The notes under the pieces: model-generated | Database searches by the model: none | Told to the model about the DNA's origin: nothing | What the model saw: only the letters and a program-made list of their open reading frames with translations | Part shown: positions 9,464 through 49,313 of the stretch, one piece after another | Numbering within the stretch: the first letter of the stretch is position 1 | Layout of the letters: every line of letters begins with the position of its first letter | From: Rhizobiales bacterium Y(2018) | Lineage (GTDB): Bacteria; Pseudomonadota; Alphaproteobacteria; Rhizobiales; Aestuariivirgaceae | DNA length: 64,000 nucleotides | Assembly: GCA_005502925.1 (NCBI GenBank) | Contig: SCPD01000013.1 | Coordinates: 62,001 to 126,000, forward strand | Direction of reading: 5' to 3' | Program-made: the position numbers and the translations under genes

Positions 9464-9880
9464 ATGCAGGAAAAAGGCAATCTTGTCGAACTGACAGCGG
9501 ATATCGTGGCGGCTTATGTGGGCAACAATACTGTGGCCCAGGCCGATCTGCCGAAGCTTATAGCCAACATCTACCGCTCGCTCGCTACCGCCACGCATGG
9601 GGCAGCGGAACCGAAGCCAGTCGAAACGGTCGAATTGAAACCGGCCGTTCCGATACGAAAATCGATCACGCCCGACTACATCATCTGTCTCGAGGACGGG
9701 AAGAAGTTCAAGTCGCTGAAGCGGCATTTGCGGACGCACTACGATCTCTCTCCCGAGCAGTATCGCGAGAAGTGGGGGCTGCCGGTCGACTATCCGATGG
9801 TGGCGCCCAGCTACGCGGAAGCGCGCTCGAACCTCGCCAAGAAGATCGGACTCGGACAGAACCGCGCCGAGAGACGTTGA
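9464..9880 (+). CDS. mucR: MucR/Ros family zinc-finger transcriptional regulator
   Basis: This DNA-binding regulator has 138 residues. Its C-terminal half is the prokaryotic Ros/MucR zinc-finger domain: the IICLEDGKKFKSLKRHLRTH core, followed by LSPEQYREKWGLP and the conserved YPMVAPSYAEARS tail. The metal ligands visible are one Cys, an Asp at the second position (CLED rather than CLEC) and two His in HLRTH; Cys-Asp-His-His coordination is known in this family. MucR proteins in rhizobia and Brucella act globally, controlling exopolysaccharide, motility, virulence and CtrA-linked genes. The N-terminal ~40 residues (LTADIVAAYVGNNTV) are the usual oligomerisation region. Length and domain order are normal. 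Confidence 0.95.
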   Translation: MQEKGNLVELTADIVAAYVGNNTVAQADLPKLIANIYRSLATATHGAAEPKPVETVELKPAVPIRKSITPDYIICLEDGKKFKSLKRHLRTHYDLSPEQYREKWGLPVDYPMVAPSYAEARSNLAKKIGLGQNRAERR

Positions 9881-42141: not shown

Positions 42142-42651
42142 TCACGGAATCTTGTTCGACTGTGTTCGCTTCAGCCTTCCCAACGTTTCAGGACTCGACG
42201 CCTGCTTCAGCAGCGACGGCCAATTGTCCGGGGGATTGCCGCGCTGAAGCATCTTGCGGAAGACGACGTAAGCATCTGTATCGCTTTCATAGGCACGCAG
42301 CGTGCTGTCGTCGTTCACCCAGCCCAGAATGATGGTGCCGCTGTTGCCGGACCGCTGATAGCGGAAGAAGAGCCTGAATTGCTGCAGGAATTTCGCCCGG
42401 AACCAGTGCCTGTATTCATCGCCGAGCGTGTCGCCCTGACGATAGACGTCACGTGCCGGGTCACTGGGGATGTCTTCGAAAGCAACCTTGAGAACAGCCG
42501 CGAGTAGTTTCGCGGCCCGCTTCCTTTTGTATCCCTTGCTGTCTTTCGCGCGAGCCTTCTCGACCTGCGCTATCATCGTCACCAACTGGCCGAGAAACAA
42601 CGGGTGGGCATAGATTGCCCAGCCATTGATCACGACCGGCGTCGCGGTCAC
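42142..42651 (-). CDS. yhaV: YhaV-family toxin (RNase-type)
   Basis: This 169-residue protein matches YhaV, the ribosome-dependent RNase toxin of the PrlF-YhaV type II toxin-antitoxin system. Landmarks are INGWAIYAHPLFLGQL near the N-terminus, KRAAKLLAAVLKVAFEDIP, HWFRAKFLQQFRLFFRY, TIILGWVNDDSTLRAYE and YVVFRKMLQRGNPPDNW. The conserved basic residues in RAKFLQQFRLFFR are candidates for RNA cleavage. Its start overlaps the antitoxin stop by four bases (42648-42651). Length is somewhat longer than the E. coli protein, with a polar C-terminus. It appears intact. Confidence 0.92.
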   Translation of the reverse strand: MTATPVVINGWAIYAHPLFLGQLVTMIAQVEKARAKDSKGYKRKRAAKLLAAVLKVAFEDIPSDPARDVYRQGDTLGDEYRHWFRAKFLQQFRLFFRYQRSGNSGTIILGWVNDDSTLRAYESDTDAYVVFRKMLQRGNPPDNWPSLLKQASSPETLGRLKRTQSNKIP

Positions 42652-42986
42652 GCGTCGTCGTCCGGCAACGCCTTGTCGAGATCGACAGTCACGCCGCGGA
42701 CAAGCTTCCTGCCGCGCTCCACCAAATCGCGCGGAACCGGCCTGATCCTGGTCGGGGCGTCCACCATATCTTTGGCCAGGAATGCCAGGAACTTGCCGAT
42801 CACTGGGTCGGGCTTGTTGATGTCCTCCTGCTTGGCAAGGACGACGGTGCCGTCAGCTAGGCCGCGGAACACGACGCGGTCACGTTTGCCAAGCGCCAGC
42901 ATCTTGCGGATTGCCGCCGGAACGGTCGTTTGGCCGCGGTCGGTAATGGTCGCCGGGATCTCGAGAAGCTTCGCATTCTTGGACAT
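42648..42986 (-). CDS. prlF: PrlF-family antitoxin (AbrB/SpoVT-type DNA-binding)
   Basis: This antitoxin of 112 residues opens with an AbrB/SpoVT swapped-hairpin domain (ATITDRGQTTVPAAIRKMLALG), which binds DNA and neutralises YhaV through its C-terminal half (KFLAFLAKDMVDAPTRIRPV). It ends in the acidic tail LDKALPDDDA. The frame is open to ATG 43010, but ATG 42986 (MSKNAKLLEI) sits six bases after a good -10, implying a leaderless message with the operator upstream. The antitoxin precedes the toxin with a four-base overlap, the standard order for this system. Confidence 0.9.
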   Translation of the reverse strand: MSKNAKLLEIPATITDRGQTTVPAAIRKMLALGKRDRVVFRGLADGTVVLAKQEDINKPDPVIGKFLAFLAKDMVDAPTRIRPVPRDLVERGRKLVRGVTVDLDKALPDDDA

Positions 42987-42992
42987 ACGAGC

Positions 42993-43020
42993 AATGTAAT
43001 GCATCTGCATTGTAAGTCAA
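42993..43020 (-). promoter_or_regulatory. PrlF-YhaV promoter with embedded operator
   Basis: On the minus strand TTGACT (43020-43015), 16 bases, TACATT (42998-42993) forms a good promoter. A dyad with arms AATGCA (42998-43003) and TGCATT (43006-43011) lies between the two boxes. The start codon at 42986 begins six bases past the -10, so the mRNA is probably leaderless. Autorepression by the antitoxin or complex is the usual pattern and is inferred. Confidence 0.6.
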
Positions 43021-43190: not shown

Positions 43191-46148
43191 TCAGAACACC
43201 ACCGCCAGCGTGGCGTTGAGGCCGTGATCCTGGGCATCGTCGGCGATCTCGCCGCTATAGGCGATGCCGAAGTTGGCGTCGGCCGAGAGCGACACATCGA
43301 AGCCCGCTTCCAGCACCGCCGCATCGCGCGCGATCGGCGCGCCGGCGATCACGAAGTCCGCCGAGCCGTCGAAGGCGAAGGTCGTTTCGGGACGCACATC
43401 GCCGAAAGCATGCCGCCAGCCTGCCATGGCGCGGAACGACGCCGGCATCTCGCCGAGATTGAAGCCGACCGCAGCGCGCAGGCCCAGCGTGGTGAAGGTG
43501 TTGTCATTGGTCTCGGAGTCGCTCGAGAGCGCCGCCGGCCCGCCACTCTCCTCGAAGTCGTCGGTCTTGGTCGAGACATAGGCCGCATTGGCGAAGGGCT
43601 CGAGCCTCAAGCTGTCGAGGTCGAAGATATAACCTGCTTCACCGAACACCTGCACGGTGCCGGCGTCGTAATCGGCATCGAGATCATCGCCCAGGGCTTC
43701 GCGTTCGGTGCTGATATCATGCCAGGCATAGGCGACGCCGGCGCGCAGGCCGAAGGCGTCGATCTGCGTGCCGCCATAAAGGCCGATCTGGTAGCTGTCG
43801 ACATCACCCGACGAGTCGCGGTCATCGGCATCGAAGCTCGAATGGGCGTAACCCGCGAGTACGCCCAGCCGCGTGGCCTCGCCGACGCCGATATCAGCAC
43901 CGGCCAGAATGCCGCCGGTATTGCGGGTGAAGTCTGCCGCATTGCCGTCGCTGTCGGTCTTGGCCCAGCTGCCGAAGCCGCGCGTCCACAGAGCGAGGCC
44001 CTGCGTGTCGGCCGGGCCATTCGTCACGCCGGCGGCGCTGAGGCCCATGACCTGACCGCCCGACGCGGCAACACCGTCGAAGGCCTGGCGCAAGCGGTCA
44101 TTGGCGGCATTGCGCCAGAAGCGGCTGTCCTGGTTGAGCATGCCGATGAGGGAGGCGTGCACTTCGCCGGACAACTGGTCGAGAAGTGCCCGCGCTTCCT
44201 CTTCGCTGCCCGCCATGGCGAGCGCCACCCACACGTCGCTGGTGACATCGAGCGTGTCGATGGCACCTGCAGTGGCCCGCTGGTTGTGCGTCTCGGCGAC
44301 CTCGACGAAGGCGACGTCGTTGCGCACCAGCTGCATCGTCACGTCGTTGCCGGTACCGCCGGCATAGTTGATCAGCGCATCGAGGAAGGGTTGATCGCTG
44401 GTGACCGGATTGAACGTGCCGACGACGGCATCGGTGCCGTCATTGTCGATGATGACATAGGGGCCGGTGAGGATGTCCCAGCTCTCGGCGGTGTTCGGCG
44501 TCAGGACGAGCTCAAGGTCGGCGCCGGCGATATCGACGGTGCCGTTGACGATCAGCTGGTCGGCGCTCGTCGGTGTCGCCTCGATCTCCAATATGCCGTG
44601 ATTGATGTAATTGGCATCGACGACCTGGGTGCCGATCGAATTGCCGGGCGCGTGGGTGCCGCCGGCTTCGATCTCGACCGTCTTGCCCGTGCTGCCGATA
44701 TTGCCAATGCCGCCGAGCCGCCCGCCGGTTTCGACGGTGATGTCGCCGCCGAGCTTTCCACCCGTGAGATTGCCGACGAACAGGCCGCCGCCCGACACCG
44801 TCGTCGTGCCGGTGAAAGTGGCGGAGCTGTCGCCGGTCAGAAGCAGCGTTCCCAGGCCCGATTTGATGATGTCTCCACCGCCTTCCAACTGACCGGCATA
44901 GGTCGTGTTGGTGGTCTGATTGATGGTCAGCTCCGCCGTCCCGACCGTGACCTTGCCCCCCGTGCCGGTGAGCGAGCTCATGGTCAGGTTGAAGCTGTTG
45001 AGATCGAGCGCGCCGCCATTCACCGTATAGCTGGTGTTGTTCACGAACGCGCCGGCGATCCCGGCGCGCAGTATGCCGCCCTCGACGACCGTGCCGCCCG
45101 TATAGGTATTGACGGCGGAAAGCACCGTGGTGCCGGCGATCTGCCGGATTGTGCCAATGCCGCTGACAGGGGTAGCGAAGGTGTACCCGGCGGAGGTATG
45201 GTTGAACACCACCTTGCTGTCGGCGACCGCAAGATTGACGGATGCCGCCTGCAGCGTGCCCGCGATCGCGGCGGGGTCACCTTCCTTGGCGCCGATATTG
45301 ATGATACCCGCGCCCGTAATACCCGCAGTCACCATGCCGGTGCCGGAGACGCCGACCCTCAATGTGCCGCTATCAGTGAGCGTCAGCTCGCCGTCGTTGA
45401 AGTGCCCGACATAGAGGTTGCCTTTGTCGGTGGCCCATTCGGATCCCAACCCGGTGATCGTGACGGCGCTGTCGCCGCTCTCGCCGATGATGCCGCCTGT
45501 CGTGCCGCCAGCGCCGGCATTGCCGCTGAACACCTTGCCACCGGCGGAGATGGTCATCGCGCCGGAGCCGATCTTGCCGACGCCAATCTGGCCATAGTTT
45601 GTCCAGGTCGAGCCCGCGCCGGTCACGAAGACAATGCCGCCATTGCCGATCGCGCCACCCGCCGCATTGGTGCCGCCGAGATCGCCGCCACCCTCGATCC
45701 TGAGCGTGCCGCCATATACCCGCGTCGTGCCGGTGAAGCCCGTTCCATCGCCGGTGAAGACGAGCATGCCGGCGCCTTGCTTGATGAAATTGGCGCCGCC
45801 GCCGCCGGTGATCAGGCCCGTCGCGATCAATGTCGTACCGGTATCCGTCTCGATGCGGCCGCCGAAGTTGGTGAAGTTGAGGGTGCGGCCGGTGGAGAAC
45901 GAGCCGGTTGTCTGAAGTATCGAAGCGGCGCCGACATTGGTCGACGCGTTGTATGATCCGCCGATGAAGGTCACGGTCTCGCCGGCGGGTCCGATGTCGC
46001 CATCGGTATTCGCAATGAGCGTCTCACCGTCATTGATGTTCACGGCGCCGGCATAACCGCCCGACAGCGCCAAGGCGCTCGCCGCCAATACCGTCAGCGC
46101 GGTGGTGCCCGTGAGGCCCCGCTTGAATCCCGTAAATGTCGCCCGCAT
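43191..46148 (-). CDS. Autotransporter (type Va) with repetitive beta-helix passenger
   Basis: This 985-residue outer-membrane protein starts with a signal-type segment (ALTVLAASALALSGGYAGAV, residues ~17-36). The passenger (about residues 37-670) is a repetitive glycine- and threonine-rich beta-helix with motifs such as GGTLRIEGGGDLGG and GTTTVSGGGLFVGNLTGG, matching the autotransporter-associated repeats PATR type. The C-terminal beta-barrel (about 700-985) ends in NATLAVVF with terminal Phe, recognised by BAM. Similar proteins mediate adhesion or autoaggregation; no protease motif is seen. A 1008-codon open frame on the opposite strand is a codon-bias shadow. It is divergent from the glycine-rich protein gene at 46790. 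Confidence 0.92.
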   Translation of the reverse strand: MRATFTGFKRGLTGTTALTVLAASALALSGGYAGAVNINDGETLIANTDGDIGPAGETVTFIGGSYNASTNVGAASILQTTGSFSTGRTLNFTNFGGRIETDTGTTLIATGLITGGGGANFIKQGAGMLVFTGDGTGFTGTTRVYGGTLRIEGGGDLGGTNAAGGAIGNGGIVFVTGAGSTWTNYGQIGVGKIGSGAMTISAGGKVFSGNAGAGGTTGGIIGESGDSAVTITGLGSEWATDKGNLYVGHFNDGELTLTDSGTLRVGVSGTGMVTAGITGAGIINIGAKEGDPAAIAGTLQAASVNLAVADSKVVFNHTSAGYTFATPVSGIGTIRQIAGTTVLSAVNTYTGGTVVEGGILRAGIAGAFVNNTSYTVNGGALDLNSFNLTMSSLTGTGGKVTVGTAELTINQTTNTTYAGQLEGGGDIIKSGLGTLLLTGDSSATFTGTTTVSGGGLFVGNLTGGKLGGDITVETGGRLGGIGNIGSTGKTVEIEAGGTHAPGNSIGTQVVDANYINHGILEIEATPTSADQLIVNGTVDIAGADLELVLTPNTAESWDILTGPYVIIDNDGTDAVVGTFNPVTSDQPFLDALINYAGGTGNDVTMQLVRNDVAFVEVAETHNQRATAGAIDTLDVTSDVWVALAMAGSEEEARALLDQLSGEVHASLIGMLNQDSRFWRNAANDRLRQAFDGVAASGGQVMGLSAAGVTNGPADTQGLALWTRGFGSWAKTDSDGNAADFTRNTGGILAGADIGVGEATRLGVLAGYAHSSFDADDRDSSGDVDSYQIGLYGGTQIDAFGLRAGVAYAWHDISTEREALGDDLDADYDAGTVQVFGEAGYIFDLDSLRLEPFANAAYVSTKTDDFEESGGPAALSSDSETNDNTFTTLGLRAAVGFNLGEMPASFRAMAGWRHAFGDVRPETTFAFDGSADFVIAGAPIARDAAVLEAGFDVSLSADANFGIAYSGEIADDAQDHGLNATLAVVF

Positions 46149-46789
46149 CCCCCAGCCCTCTCTCGCTCAGGTTATTTCTTCCACAGCGAGATGATGAGGA
46201 TCGTTGCCCCTGATCACGCGTCGCCCGGTAGCTTTTCTGACACAGCGTCAAATCTCGGGCAAGGGGTTAACGGCGAAGATTCATATCGTCTTAAAGTGAT
46301 CCTCAACTTTGAATAGAATTATCTCAATCGTGTGAACCTTATCGATACGAATTTCTGGTCACCCGCATAAAGTTTCTGTGGAAAAACCGATTCTCGCGGA
46401 TGTTGTAATCGCGCGACCGCCGGCTTTCACCCCGCCACGGAGAATTTGGCGCCGGGCACCCGACTTTCTTGGCGCGGGCCGGGAAGGGTGATTTTCATCA
46501 TTTCGGCAGCGTTTGCTCTAATCGAAATGAAACATCCGTTTTACCCCCGCTACACCGCTCAAATTGTTCCTGATTTTCTGAAATGCGCAAAGACGCTGCG
46601 TTAAGGGAATATTAACTACAATACATTCCAAATAAAACGCAAATATACACAAATATAGATTTGTTAATAGTAAGTTAACCTAACTATAGTTTTCCCGACG
46701 GACGCAGATATAGTTTGTATCACGCGTCTAGGACCAGAGAAGAGAGTGGACGTAGTAATTAACTAATCTCTCAACGGCGAGGTGAACAA
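46149..46789. other. Long AT-rich intergenic region between two surface-protein genes
   Basis: No gene is seen in these 641 bases. The half nearest the glycine-rich protein gene is strongly AT-rich and holds two perfect CtrA boxes and a promoter (listed separately). An inverted repeat with arms TCATTTCG (46498-46505) and CGAAATGA (46523-46530) lies in the middle. Promoter sequences for the autotransporter gene should be near 46149-46330, but no strong match could be picked. Confidence 0.6.
46601..46689 (+). promoter_or_regulatory. Two perfect CtrA boxes and a promoter upstream of the glycine-rich protein gene
   Basis: TTAA-gggaata-TTAAC (46601-46616) and TTAA-tagtaag-TTAAC (46664-46679) both match the CtrA consensus TTAA-N7-TTAAC exactly; their starts are 63 bases apart. 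The second overlaps a -35 TTGTTA (46661-46666) that is 17 bases from a -10 CTATAG (46684-46689), the usual place for CtrA-activated promoters. Transcription would begin near 46696, giving a leader of about 94 bases. Cell-cycle control by CtrA is inferred from the boxes. Confidence 0.75.
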
Positions 46790-47818
46790 ATGAAAACGGC
46801 GATTACCACGGGAAGACTGAATGTACTGGCGGCAGCGGTTTCCATGGCTGTGCTGGTCGGAATGGCCATCCCCGCTCAGGCTGAACAGGGCGGCGGTGGT
46901 CTTGGTGGCCTTGGCGGTGCCGTAGGTGGTGCCGTCGGCGGCGCGGTCGGTGCGGTTGGCGGTGTTGTCGGCGGTGTCGGCAATACGGTCGGCGGCGTTG
47001 TCGGCGGCCTGACGGGTGGCGGCTCGACGGGCGGTGGCCTGCTGGGTGGCGGCTCGACCGGCGGTCTGCTGGGCGGCGGTGGCCTGCTCGGTGGCGGCAC
47101 CAGCAGCACCAGCAGCAACACCACGGGTGGCGGCCTTCTCGGCGGCACGGGTGGCCTGCTCGGCGGCAGCGGCGGTTCGACCGGCGGTGGCGTCATCAAC
47201 AATTTCAACGGCAAGGGGATCGGTGTGAATCTTGGCGTCGCCAAGGTCGGCGTCGGCCTCAAGAACAAGAAAGGGCTCAAGGCCCTGATCAAGCTGCAGG
47301 CGCTGGGCAAGAACGGCGTGAACGCCAAGGTGGGCGCCAATCTTCTCGGCGAGAAGAGCCTGCTTGACGCCAAGGCCAAGGCCAATGTGCTGGGCAAGAA
47401 TGGTCTCACCGCCAAGGCGAACGCCAAGGCGCTCAGCAAGAACGGTGATCTGGTCAACGCCAAGGCCAAGGTGAATGCGTTGGGCAAGAACGGCCTGACG
47501 GCCAAAGTCGGCGCCAAGGTCGGCACCGATGGCATCGGCGTGAAGATTGGTCTGTCGCTGGGCGGCGGCAAAAAGCCGGGTGGTCCGGGTGGTCCGGGCG
47601 GGCCTGGTGGCCCCGGCGGACCTGGTGGCCCCGGCGGACCTGGCGGACCTGGCACCCCGGGCAACAACGGTGGCATCGGCAACGAAATCGCCGGCCTGTC
47701 CAACTATGAGCGCATGCAGCTCAAGAAGAAGTGCGGTGCGGTTCTCGCTTCGCCTTCCAGCTACAACCGTGATGCGGTTCAGGTATGCCGCGTCCTCGCC
47801 CAACTCGCGGGACTCTAG
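46790..47818 (+). CDS. Secreted glycine-rich protein with Ala/Lys repeats and collagen-like GGP tract
   Basis: This 342-residue protein has a clear signal peptide (cleavage near AQA-EQ, residue ~31) and four distinct parts. Residues 34-135 are Gly-rich with Val, Leu, Ser and Thr. Residues 158-258 are Ala/Lys-rich repeats of about 30 residues with a LGKNGLTAK core. Residues 264-287 are eight GGP triplets, followed by GTPGNN. Residues 300-342 form a small domain with Cys315 and Cys333 (SNYERMQLKKKCGAVL and RDAVQVCRVLAQL). I do not recognise a named family for the whole. Export, repeats and CtrA boxes suggest a cell-surface or pole/holdfast-like material made at a set cell-cycle stage; this is inference. 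Confidence 0.85.
   Translation: MKTAITTGRLNVLAAAVSMAVLVGMAIPAQAEQGGGGLGGLGGAVGGAVGGAVGAVGGVVGGVGNTVGGVVGGLTGGGSTGGGLLGGGSTGGLLGGGGLLGGGTSSTSSNTTGGGLLGGTGGLLGGSGGSTGGGVINNFNGKGIGVNLGVAKVGVGLKNKKGLKALIKLQALGKNGVNAKVGANLLGEKSLLDAKAKANVLGKNGLTAKANAKALSKNGDLVNAKAKVNALGKNGLTAKVGAKVGTDGIGVKIGLSLGGGKKPGGPGGPGGPGGPGGPGGPGGPGGPGTPGNNGGIGNEIAGLSNYERMQLKKKCGAVLASPSSYNRDAVQVCRVLAQLAGL
47579..47650 (+). repeat. GGP-coding tandem repeat (8 x 9 bases)
   Basis: Eight consecutive Gly-Gly-Pro codon triplets encode a collagen-like tract inside the glycine-rich protein. Codons vary between copies, so the tract is old enough to have diverged at third positions but could still change length by slippage or recombination. 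Confidence 0.85.
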
Positions 47819-47871
47819 AGCTAATCCCCCAGCTCCGGAAACAAGTCTCGTGATTGTCTGGTGACGGCATG

Positions 47872-47903
47872 CTGCGCGGTTCTTCGGAGCCGCGCAGTAT
47901 TTT
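47872..47903 (+). terminator. Intrinsic terminator after the glycine-rich protein gene
   Basis: An 11-bp stem (CTGCGCGGTTC at 47872-47882, GAGCCGCGCAG at 47887-47897, one G-T pair) is capped by a stable TTCG tetraloop and followed by TATTTTA. It lies 54 bases past the stop codon on the plus strand. Confidence 0.85.
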
Positions 47904-47948
47904 ATGGTCGGGCCTGACCCGACCATCCAGAAAAGCACAATGACGGGC

Positions 47949-49313
47949 TTAGTCCCTCGCGGCGTCCTTGCCCTTGCCCGTCGCGGGCATTGCGCCGCCG
48001 AAGACCTGAAAGAGGATCCGCCGCGGTACGAAGCGTTCGTCATTGACCAGAAAGCTGAAGGTGAAGGCGACGCCGAGCACAAGTATGTTGAGGAGGAAGG
48101 CATAGATGACGGCGCGATCCGGATAGCTGTCCTTGATGCTCGCGACCATCAGCGGTCCAACCACGCCGGCGGCCGACCAGGCGGTGAGGATGACGCCATA
48201 GAGGCGCGACATGCGCTTCGTCCCATAAACGTCGCTGACCATGGAAGGCATGATCGCGAAGCCGCCGCCGAAGCAGCTCAGCACGTAACACACGAGAGCG
48301 GCGAAGACCCACGGATTGTGCTCCGTCATCAGAAGGCCGAACACGACCAGCTGGGTGGCGAACAGGACACGAAAGGTATTGAGGCGGCCGAGCCGCTCCG
48401 AGACGGCGCCCCAGGCGATGCGCCCGAGGCCGTTGAACAGCGAGCTGACGGCGATCAGCGTGGCGCCATAGCCGGCCAGCACGGTGCGCTCCAGGGTCGG
48501 ATGATCGAGCCTCCAGATGTCCTGATACAGCGGCGATAGAAAGCTGATGATCGAGATGCCGGCTGTTATGTTAAGGAAGAAGACGAACCACATGATCGCA
48601 TATTGGCCGGCCAGCAGATAATCGCGGAGCGGCAGGTCAGCCTCTTGCTCGGCCCGCGCATAGGGACCTTCGCTTTGGCTCTCCTTTTGCGCCGCCGCGA
48701 CGAAGCCCTGGGGGAGGTAGCCCTCGGGTGGGTTCTTCAGCAGCGCAGCGGAGGCGATGGCGACCGAGCCGAGGATGGCGCCGAGTGCTGCAAAGACCAG
48801 CGTCAGGTTCCCGGCGAGCATGTGCATCAGGATCGGCGCCAGCAAGACGCTGAGGACGAAGGCGCCGAGCCCGAAGCCCATGGCGACGATGCCGGTCAGC
48901 TGGCCTCTCCGGTCGGGAAACCATTTGATGACGGTGGTCATCGGCGTCACATAGCCAAGGCCGATGCCGATCCCGCTGACGGCGCCATAGCCCAGATAGA
49001 ACAGCGGGAGACTCTCGACCGCAAGCGCGAAGGCTGCCAAGGCGTAGCCCGCCGCGAAGAGAATGCCGCCGGCGACGGCCAGCTTGCGCGGCCCGAACTT
49101 GGCAAGATTGACCCCGCCCCAGGCCGCCGACAGGCCGAGGCAGCAGATATTCAGGCTGAAGGCCCAGGACGTATCGGTATTGCTCCAGCGGAACTGCTCC
49201 ACCAGGAGGGGCTGGAAATAGCTCCAGGCATAGACGGTGCCGAGGCAGAGCTGCAGGACCGTGCAGGCGATGGCGACCAGCCACCGGTTGGGCGCACGAT
49301 CCGGTATGGGCAT
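47949..49313 (-). CDS. OFA-family major facilitator (oxalate/formate antiporter-like)
   Basis: This 454-residue membrane carrier should have 12 segments. It begins NRWLVAIACTVLQLCLGTVY, followed by AWSYFQPLL, the OFA-family hallmark; GYGAVSGIGIGLGYVTPM and KWFPDRRGQLTGIVAMGFGL are also typical, with a second half beginning near the cytoplasmic loop at about residues 205-230. OxlT exchanges oxalate for formate; other OFA members carry small monocarboxylates, so the substrate cannot be named. It is the last gene of a three-gene unit with a HAMP membrane protein and an orphan binding protein, 2 bases after the HAMP gene stop. It probably imports or exports the ligand sensed by them; that is inference. 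Confidence 0.88.
   Translation of the reverse strand: MPIPDRAPNRWLVAIACTVLQLCLGTVYAWSYFQPLLVEQFRWSNTDTSWAFSLNICCLGLSAAWGGVNLAKFGPRKLAVAGGILFAAGYALAAFALAVESLPLFYLGYGAVSGIGIGLGYVTPMTTVIKWFPDRRGQLTGIVAMGFGLGAFVLSVLLAPILMHMLAGNLTLVFAALGAILGSVAIASAALLKNPPEGYLPQGFVAAAQKESQSEGPYARAEQEADLPLRDYLLAGQYAIMWFVFFLNITAGISIISFLSPLYQDIWRLDHPTLERTVLAGYGATLIAVSSLFNGLGRIAWGAVSERLGRLNTFRVLFATQLVVFGLLMTEHNPWVFAALVCYVLSCFGGGFAIMPSMVSDVYGTKRMSRLYGVILTAWSAAGVVGPLMVASIKDSYPDRAVIYAFLLNILVLGVAFTFSFLVNDERFVPRRILFQVFGGAMPATGKGKDAARD

Follow-up and report, generated by a model that had tools for sequence, protein, structure and literature searches.

The region 46595-46789 of the DNA analysed here, a stretch of 64 kb to which we refer as the window, is probably a CtrA-controlled sigma-70 promoter of the gene for a Gly-rich protein, in which phosphorylated CtrA (CtrA~P) would activate transcription from a box overlapping the −35 (box 2) and a second box, located upstream (box 1), would tune the response. 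Expression of the Gly-rich gene is probably timed by the cell cycle, because the gene is preceded by two perfect CtrA boxes that are almost unchanged in two related species. The reading of this region as a CtrA-type promoter is well supported by the comparative evidence reported below.

The Box Pair and the Predicted Promoter

Box 1 (TTAAGGGAATATTAAC, 46601..46616, + strand) and box 2 (TTAATAGTAAGTTAAC, 46664..46679, + strand) match the consensus TTAA-N7-TTAAC with 0 mismatches on either strand, and were found exactly where a preliminary description of this DNA had located them. Since the opposite strand also matches, one base over, both boxes are full palindromes (GTTAA-N7-TTAAC). The motif TTAA-N7-TTAA occurs in the 64-kb window only at boxes 1 and 2, vs an expectation of 0.01 sites (mean of 100 dinucleotide shuffles). 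When the promoter region alone (46560-46790, 231 bp, 63% AT) was shuffled, again preserving dinucleotides (n = 5000), at least one site was obtained in 141 cases and two sites in 0. The distances of the two boxes from the ATG of the Gly-rich gene are 189 bp for box 1 and 126 bp for box 2.

The scan of 46100-48000 listed on the + strand a single promoter-like site, a sigma-70-like element at 46661..46690 in which 18 bp separate TTGTTA (46661-46666) from TATAGT (46685-46690). The −10 can alternatively be read as CTATAG, at 17 bp from TTGTTA; this is the spacing proposed in the preliminary description, together with the overlap of box 2 with the −35, and it was reproduced in our analysis. Placed from the position of the −10, the transcription start would fall near 46697, with the 5′ end of box 2 at about −33 and box 1 at about −96. 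A motif scan for SciP, GANTC and DnaA motifs in 46560-46790 found none, using the SciP half site given in PMC4287350 and the usual GANTC and DnaA patterns.

The 5′ leader with the ribosome-binding region (GGCGAGGTGAAC, 46697..46789, + strand) was delimited by alignment, and includes GAGAG...CTCTC arms at 46742-46772. A leader RNA hairpin formed by these arms was considered and rejected, since the fold of 46696-46795 was no better than that of shuffled sequences (z −0.47; 60 of 200 shuffles folding as well), and a search of 45900-48000 against Rfam found nothing up to E 1. Downstream of the gene, a terminator-like hairpin at 47869..47900 (+ strand) is a consensus match alone, four such sites having been found vs 2.3 expected. 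Just past the predicted start, GACGCAGATATAGTTTGTATCACGCGTC at 46701-46728 is an inverted repeat, within which a second TATAGT (46709-46714) is kept in all three species compared.

Conservation in the Genus

The genome that contains the window (7.1 Mb, in 37 contigs; the window corresponds to 62001-126000 of contig C4) would be placed, from its kinship with the congeners, near Taklimakanibacter. An orthologue of the Gly-rich gene, together with its promoter, is present in two of the four other genomes of the genus, namely G003 and G001 (T. lacteus), or in 3/5 counting its own; among the matches listed by the scan of the genome contigs, two loci correspond to these two orthologues. The promoter used as query against 60 genomes of the family gave three strong matches (own, G003 and G001), and the short matches seen in 13 genomes at E 0.16-0.9 were taken as chance. 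A search of the single-contig genome G002 with the protein (E 0.001) and with the promoter (E 1) found nothing, and in G004 (87% complete) there are only more distant relatives; the gene, therefore, looks accessory.

The preliminary description had pointed to the conservation of the boxes in related genomes as a check of its reading. This was confirmed for box 2, which is identical at 16/16 positions in both G003 and G001, and for the box-to-box distance, which is 63 bp in all three species, even though 8 of the 46 bases of 46617-46662 differ in G001. It was confirmed only in part for box 1: all 16 positions agree in G003, but one differs in G001 (15/16), which has GTAA instead of TTAA as left half-site, so that this box is not perfect in every relative. 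The −10 hexamer is conserved at 6/6 positions in G001, and is identical across the three species. The two longest stretches shared without change by the three species measure 34 bp (46650-46683, holding box 2) and 22 bp (46602-46623, with most of box 1); one changed base (46684) separates the 34-bp run from another, of 10 bp, which starts at 46685 and holds the −10.

Upstream of box 1, at 46400-46594, only 82 of 195 positions are identical to G001, and the sequences are barely alignable, vs 160/195 in G003; since the latter is the closer relative, the edge of conservation upstream of box 1 shows mainly against G001. Measured in bins of 20 bp, the identity with G001 ranges from 5 to 10 in each of the bins from 46420 to 46560, and then amounts to 11 (46580), 19 (46600), 14 (46620), 18 (46640) and 20 (46660). 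Within the leader (46700-46770), 69 of 71 positions are identical to G003 and 52 of 71 to G001. The N7 bases of both boxes are also identical across the three species, and, since this conservation exceeds what CtrA needs, another factor may contribute at the boxes.

CtrA and Other Regulators Encoded by the Genome

A CtrA gene is present on contig C6 (C6:65089-65766), and its product matches NCBIfam NF045991 with 420.4 bits, vs an equivalog cut-off of 350. This protein shows 84% identity over 226 residues to a Caulobacter CtrA sequence, and the two do not differ at any residue from VHLTGKEYQ to CKLRKKLA, a stretch that covers most of the DNA-binding domain. The best match among solved structures is the CtrA receiver 4qpj. 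The CtrA query gave 45 matches in the genome, which thus encodes many further response regulators. Only one protein of the genome matches the MucR/Ros family (Pfam PF05443, above cut-off), and its gene is within the window, at 9464-9880; in Caulobacter, the CtrA motif is described at many promoters under MucR peaks (PMC4287350).

Full Boxes across the Genome

The 7.1-Mb genome contains 23 TTAA-N7-TTAA sites, vs 40 sites of the reversed control AATT-N7-AATT, so that the motif is not over-represented by count. With the placement assigned by a simple ORF caller, 20 of the 23 sites (both boxes of the window counted) fall between genes with a predicted start at most 300 bp downstream, 1 is inside an ORF and 2 are intergenic otherwise. 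The control was examined on the 15 of its 40 sites that were retrieved as loci, 6 of which are inside an ORF and 8 upstream. AT-rich words favour intergenic DNA anyway, and the control sites, which lean there too, cover this bias in part. The signal resides in the pairing, position and conservation of the boxes rather than in their number.

Of the 20 proteins near the sites that were compared with Pfam, 17 are encoded directly behind a site. Those with division, envelope or regulatory functions are MinC, FtsK, ParB, a DUF882/M15 peptidase, a response regulator, a YkuD transpeptidase, a sugar transferase, FecR and DUF1465; moreover, a site-associated ABC ATPase is followed by an FtsX-like permease, and we read the two as FtsE-FtsX. 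Less obvious fits are YebC/TACO1, a ribosome-hibernation type S30AE protein and a CarboxypepD_reg-like one, and the others are without family. The view that the genes near the other sites of the genome form a CtrA-like set is supported by these assignments; ftsK is described as a CtrA target in Caulobacter (PMC4287350).

The only other sites less than 100 bp apart are those of minC (C11:1133821 and 1133860). These boxes (C11:1133821-1133874) are 39 bp apart, with the predicted start 28 bp from one and 67 bp from the other. G003 and G001 retain both of them, while the intervening DNA has changed, G001 having 9 bp less; searching G002 and G004 for the minC promoter gave no DNA match. The minC box pair is an internal positive control for the CtrA reading.

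Proposed Mechanism and Rival Explanations

We infer that phosphorylated CtrA would bind box 2, covering the weak −35, and that CtrA~P in this position would help RNA polymerase to start from TATAGT, with the transcription of the Gly-rich gene following CtrA activity (in Caulobacter, this would be in predivisional cells). B-DNA has 10.5 bp per turn, and 63 bp correspond to six turns. Box 1, 63 bp upstream, would hold another CtrA dimer six helical turns away on the same DNA face, where it may set the sensitivity and the timing of the promoter, in the manner of the additional CtrA sites at Caulobacter pilA. CtrA-activated promoters are described as having mostly one site, and at pilA the upstream extra ones lower and delay the expression (PMC11264516). 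In the Caulobacter promoters reported to follow CtrA in predivisional cells, the 5′ end of the full motif is near −35, and the CtrA-repressed class is reported to have half motifs, with binding over the −10 (PMC4287350). By analogy, the position of box 2, at about −33 from the predicted start, would be that of the activating motifs.

CtrA can both activate and repress, and the overlap of box 2 with the −35 would also suit a repressor: CtrA might bind both boxes and block RNA polymerase at the −35, with the protein made when CtrA is absent. The other close pair of the genome, at minC, points in the same direction, as in S. meliloti minCD is described as directly repressed by CtrA (PMC4433202). 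On the other hand, TTGTTA would be a weak −35 without an activator, and the arrangement of full motifs with the 5′ end near −35 goes, in the Caulobacter classes described above, with activation, the half motifs over the −10 being those of repression; on balance, we hold repression to be not very probable. It is unlikely that the main protein bound at the palindromes is a different regulator, either of the OmpR family or the silencer MucR acting on an AT-rich promoter, with an incidental match to CtrA. The N7 spacers conserved as well as the half-sites, the many response regulators found (45 matches of the CtrA query), the MucR gene in the window (9464-9880) and the CtrA motifs under many Caulobacter MucR peaks (PMC4287350) would agree with this possibility; however, CtrA fits without extra assumptions two perfect TTAA-N7-TTAAC sites whose motif is also found upstream of minC, ftsK and parB, and MucR could act jointly with CtrA.

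The boxes lie in an intergenic region shared with a divergent autotransporter gene (43191-46148), at about 450 bp from its start, and G003 has the autotransporter at the corresponding position, so they might serve this gene, or both genes. In G001, however, the boxes are found at unchanged distance before the Gly-rich gene, the upstream gene is on the same strand and without Pfam match, none of the ORFs of 200 aa or more within 10 kb (locus L066) was recognised as an autotransporter, and the sequence past box 1 is not conserved. The boxes thus accompany the Gly-rich gene, and a role in the autotransporter expression appears very unlikely. The genome-wide number of sites, which is not raised (23 vs 40 in the control), would be expected of chance AT-rich sequence with no CtrA function, but the pairing, conservation and position of the boxes make this hardly conceivable.

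Two observations concern the autotransporter side of the region. A toxin-antitoxin pair of the PrlF-YhaV type (Pfam) is located at 42142-43010, on the minus strand, between a LysR gene and the autotransporter. Moreover, no autotransporter being recognised beside the Gly-rich gene of G001, it looks as if a block had been inserted or lost there.

Comparison with Known Systems

With the CtrA-activated promoter that we favour, the Gly-rich gene would probably be an additional direct target of CtrA; for the genus Taklimakanibacter, the open-licence full-text literature gave only name lists. A close likeness is to the pilA promoter of Caulobacter crescentus, as described in PMC11264516, in which a CtrA box at the −35 and upstream CtrA binding likewise precede the gene of an exported protein. 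At pilA there are three upstream sites, which are further from the consensus, two of them with 6-bp spacers, and the nearest is 31 bp upstream of Site 1; by contrast, the window promoter has one upstream box, perfect and N7-spaced, at 63 bp start to start, and its product, unlike that of pilA, is not a pilin. As for minCD, reported as a CtrA target in S. meliloti (PMC4433202), the minC of this genome also has two full boxes; however, minC is a core division gene and the spacing of its boxes varies, whereas the pair in the window precedes an apparently accessory gene and its spacing is fixed. The consensus TTAA-N7-TTAAC and the intergenic placement are shared with the CtrA regulon of Hyphomonas neptunium, in which 211 of 222 sites are reported as intergenic (PMC7200025); those sites were mapped by ChIP-seq, whereas the ones in the window are known from sequence alone.

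The box pair provides a clean natural test promoter, with two perfect boxes, a fixed spacing and strong conservation. If the product is on the surface, this would be one more case in which the cell cycle times the cell exterior, in line with the precedents described for the CtrA-driven pili (PMC11264516) and the cell-cycle-regulated capsule of Caulobacter (PMC4241560).

The Probably Exported Gly-Rich Protein and Its Family

The Gly-rich gene (46790..47818, + strand) is an ORF for a protein of 342 aa, which includes a signal peptide, a Gly-rich part, central repeats, a PGG linker and a C-terminal Cys module, and which is 92% identical to its orthologue in G003 and 71% to that in G001. The signal peptide, read by eye, spans about residues 1-31 and ends in ...AIPAQA. 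The central part (residues 146-257; 47225..47560, + strand), the length of which varies among the orthologues, would contain nine short beta strands with KNG-type turns, according to a low-confidence model. The linker (residues 263-286; 47576..47647, + strand) consists of PGG x 8, has 9 units in G003 and is absent in G001. The C-terminal helical module (residues 296-342; 47675..47815, + strand), with Cys315 and Cys333, is a conserved family signature. The AlphaFold model has a mean pLDDT of 36, so that the strands within 146-257 and the helices within 296-340 are to be taken as a sketch only; the block of residues 301-342 has pLDDT 54-68. The product is probably exported and located in the envelope or outside the cell, the signal read by eye being the one feature that points to a non-cytoplasmic place; the surface or pole structure suggested in the preliminary description would be one possibility.

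In the preliminary description the protein was called collagen-like. We rejected this assignment, because there are only eight PGG units, the run is absent in the T. lacteus orthologue, which has a Gly/Asn/Ser linker there, and no collagen match was obtained in Pfam. The Pfam search gave no match up to E 1 for the protein, with KH_NusA_C alone appearing, by chance, at E 3.6 for the whole sequence and at 0.34 for its middle part. In NCBIfam no match was found up to E 10 for either the whole protein or its C-terminus, and the middle part had a chance S3 match at 0.022.

A profile of the C-terminal module (A3) found it in 26 of 297 genomes of the order, belonging to 13 of 122 genera, its own genome and G001 included, and gave no match in plasmids at E 0.01. 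Most of the family members that we read by eye combine a signal peptide and a C-terminal C-x17-C module with low-complexity repeats, which are usually Gly-rich; the window protein shares these traits with the order's secreted Gly-rich/repeat family, and the CtrA pair is found at the window gene and its two orthologues. No full box was found upstream of the paralogues, namely L003 and L117 of its own genome, L026 of G001, L029 and L035 of G003, L027/L030 of G004 (one gene) and L022 of G019, in a scan that left out the weak matches L021/L033, L023 and L024. Among the more distant members, counted as 26 loci with the matches lacking a locus left out, 25 were scanned by script, with upstream spans of 750 bp in 22 of the 25 and of 744, 486 and 300 bp in the others; one (L085) has a full box, which is single, and eight, L085 among them, have a box with one mismatch. 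The remaining locus, L092, was read separately and is without box. On the sample scanned, the paired CtrA boxes are a trait of this orthologous group and not of the family. The full TTAA-N7-TTAA upstream of L085, which belongs to another family of the order (G113), may possibly reflect an independent CtrA control.

The gene gives a handle on this secreted Gly-rich family of the order, which is unnamed in Pfam and NCBIfam. As a tentative and rather doubtful suggestion, this undescribed family of exported repeat proteins, with a Gly-zipper-like N part, beta-strand repeats and C-terminal helices capable of disulfide formation, might build an extracellular fibre or coat, which in Taklimakanibacter would be under a two-box CtrA timer and would be carried by one daughter or at one division stage. 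Repeated blocks of the KAKLDVLSKKxLxxLCxxxGGGxxCG type were observed in the related secreted proteins L003, L027, L029, L035, L099, L105, L108 and L117. Finally, one Gly-rich paralogue (L002/L003) seems to be split by an assembly break, its C-terminal and N-terminal parts being apart, as both parts sit at contig ends, the end of C6 and the start of C32.
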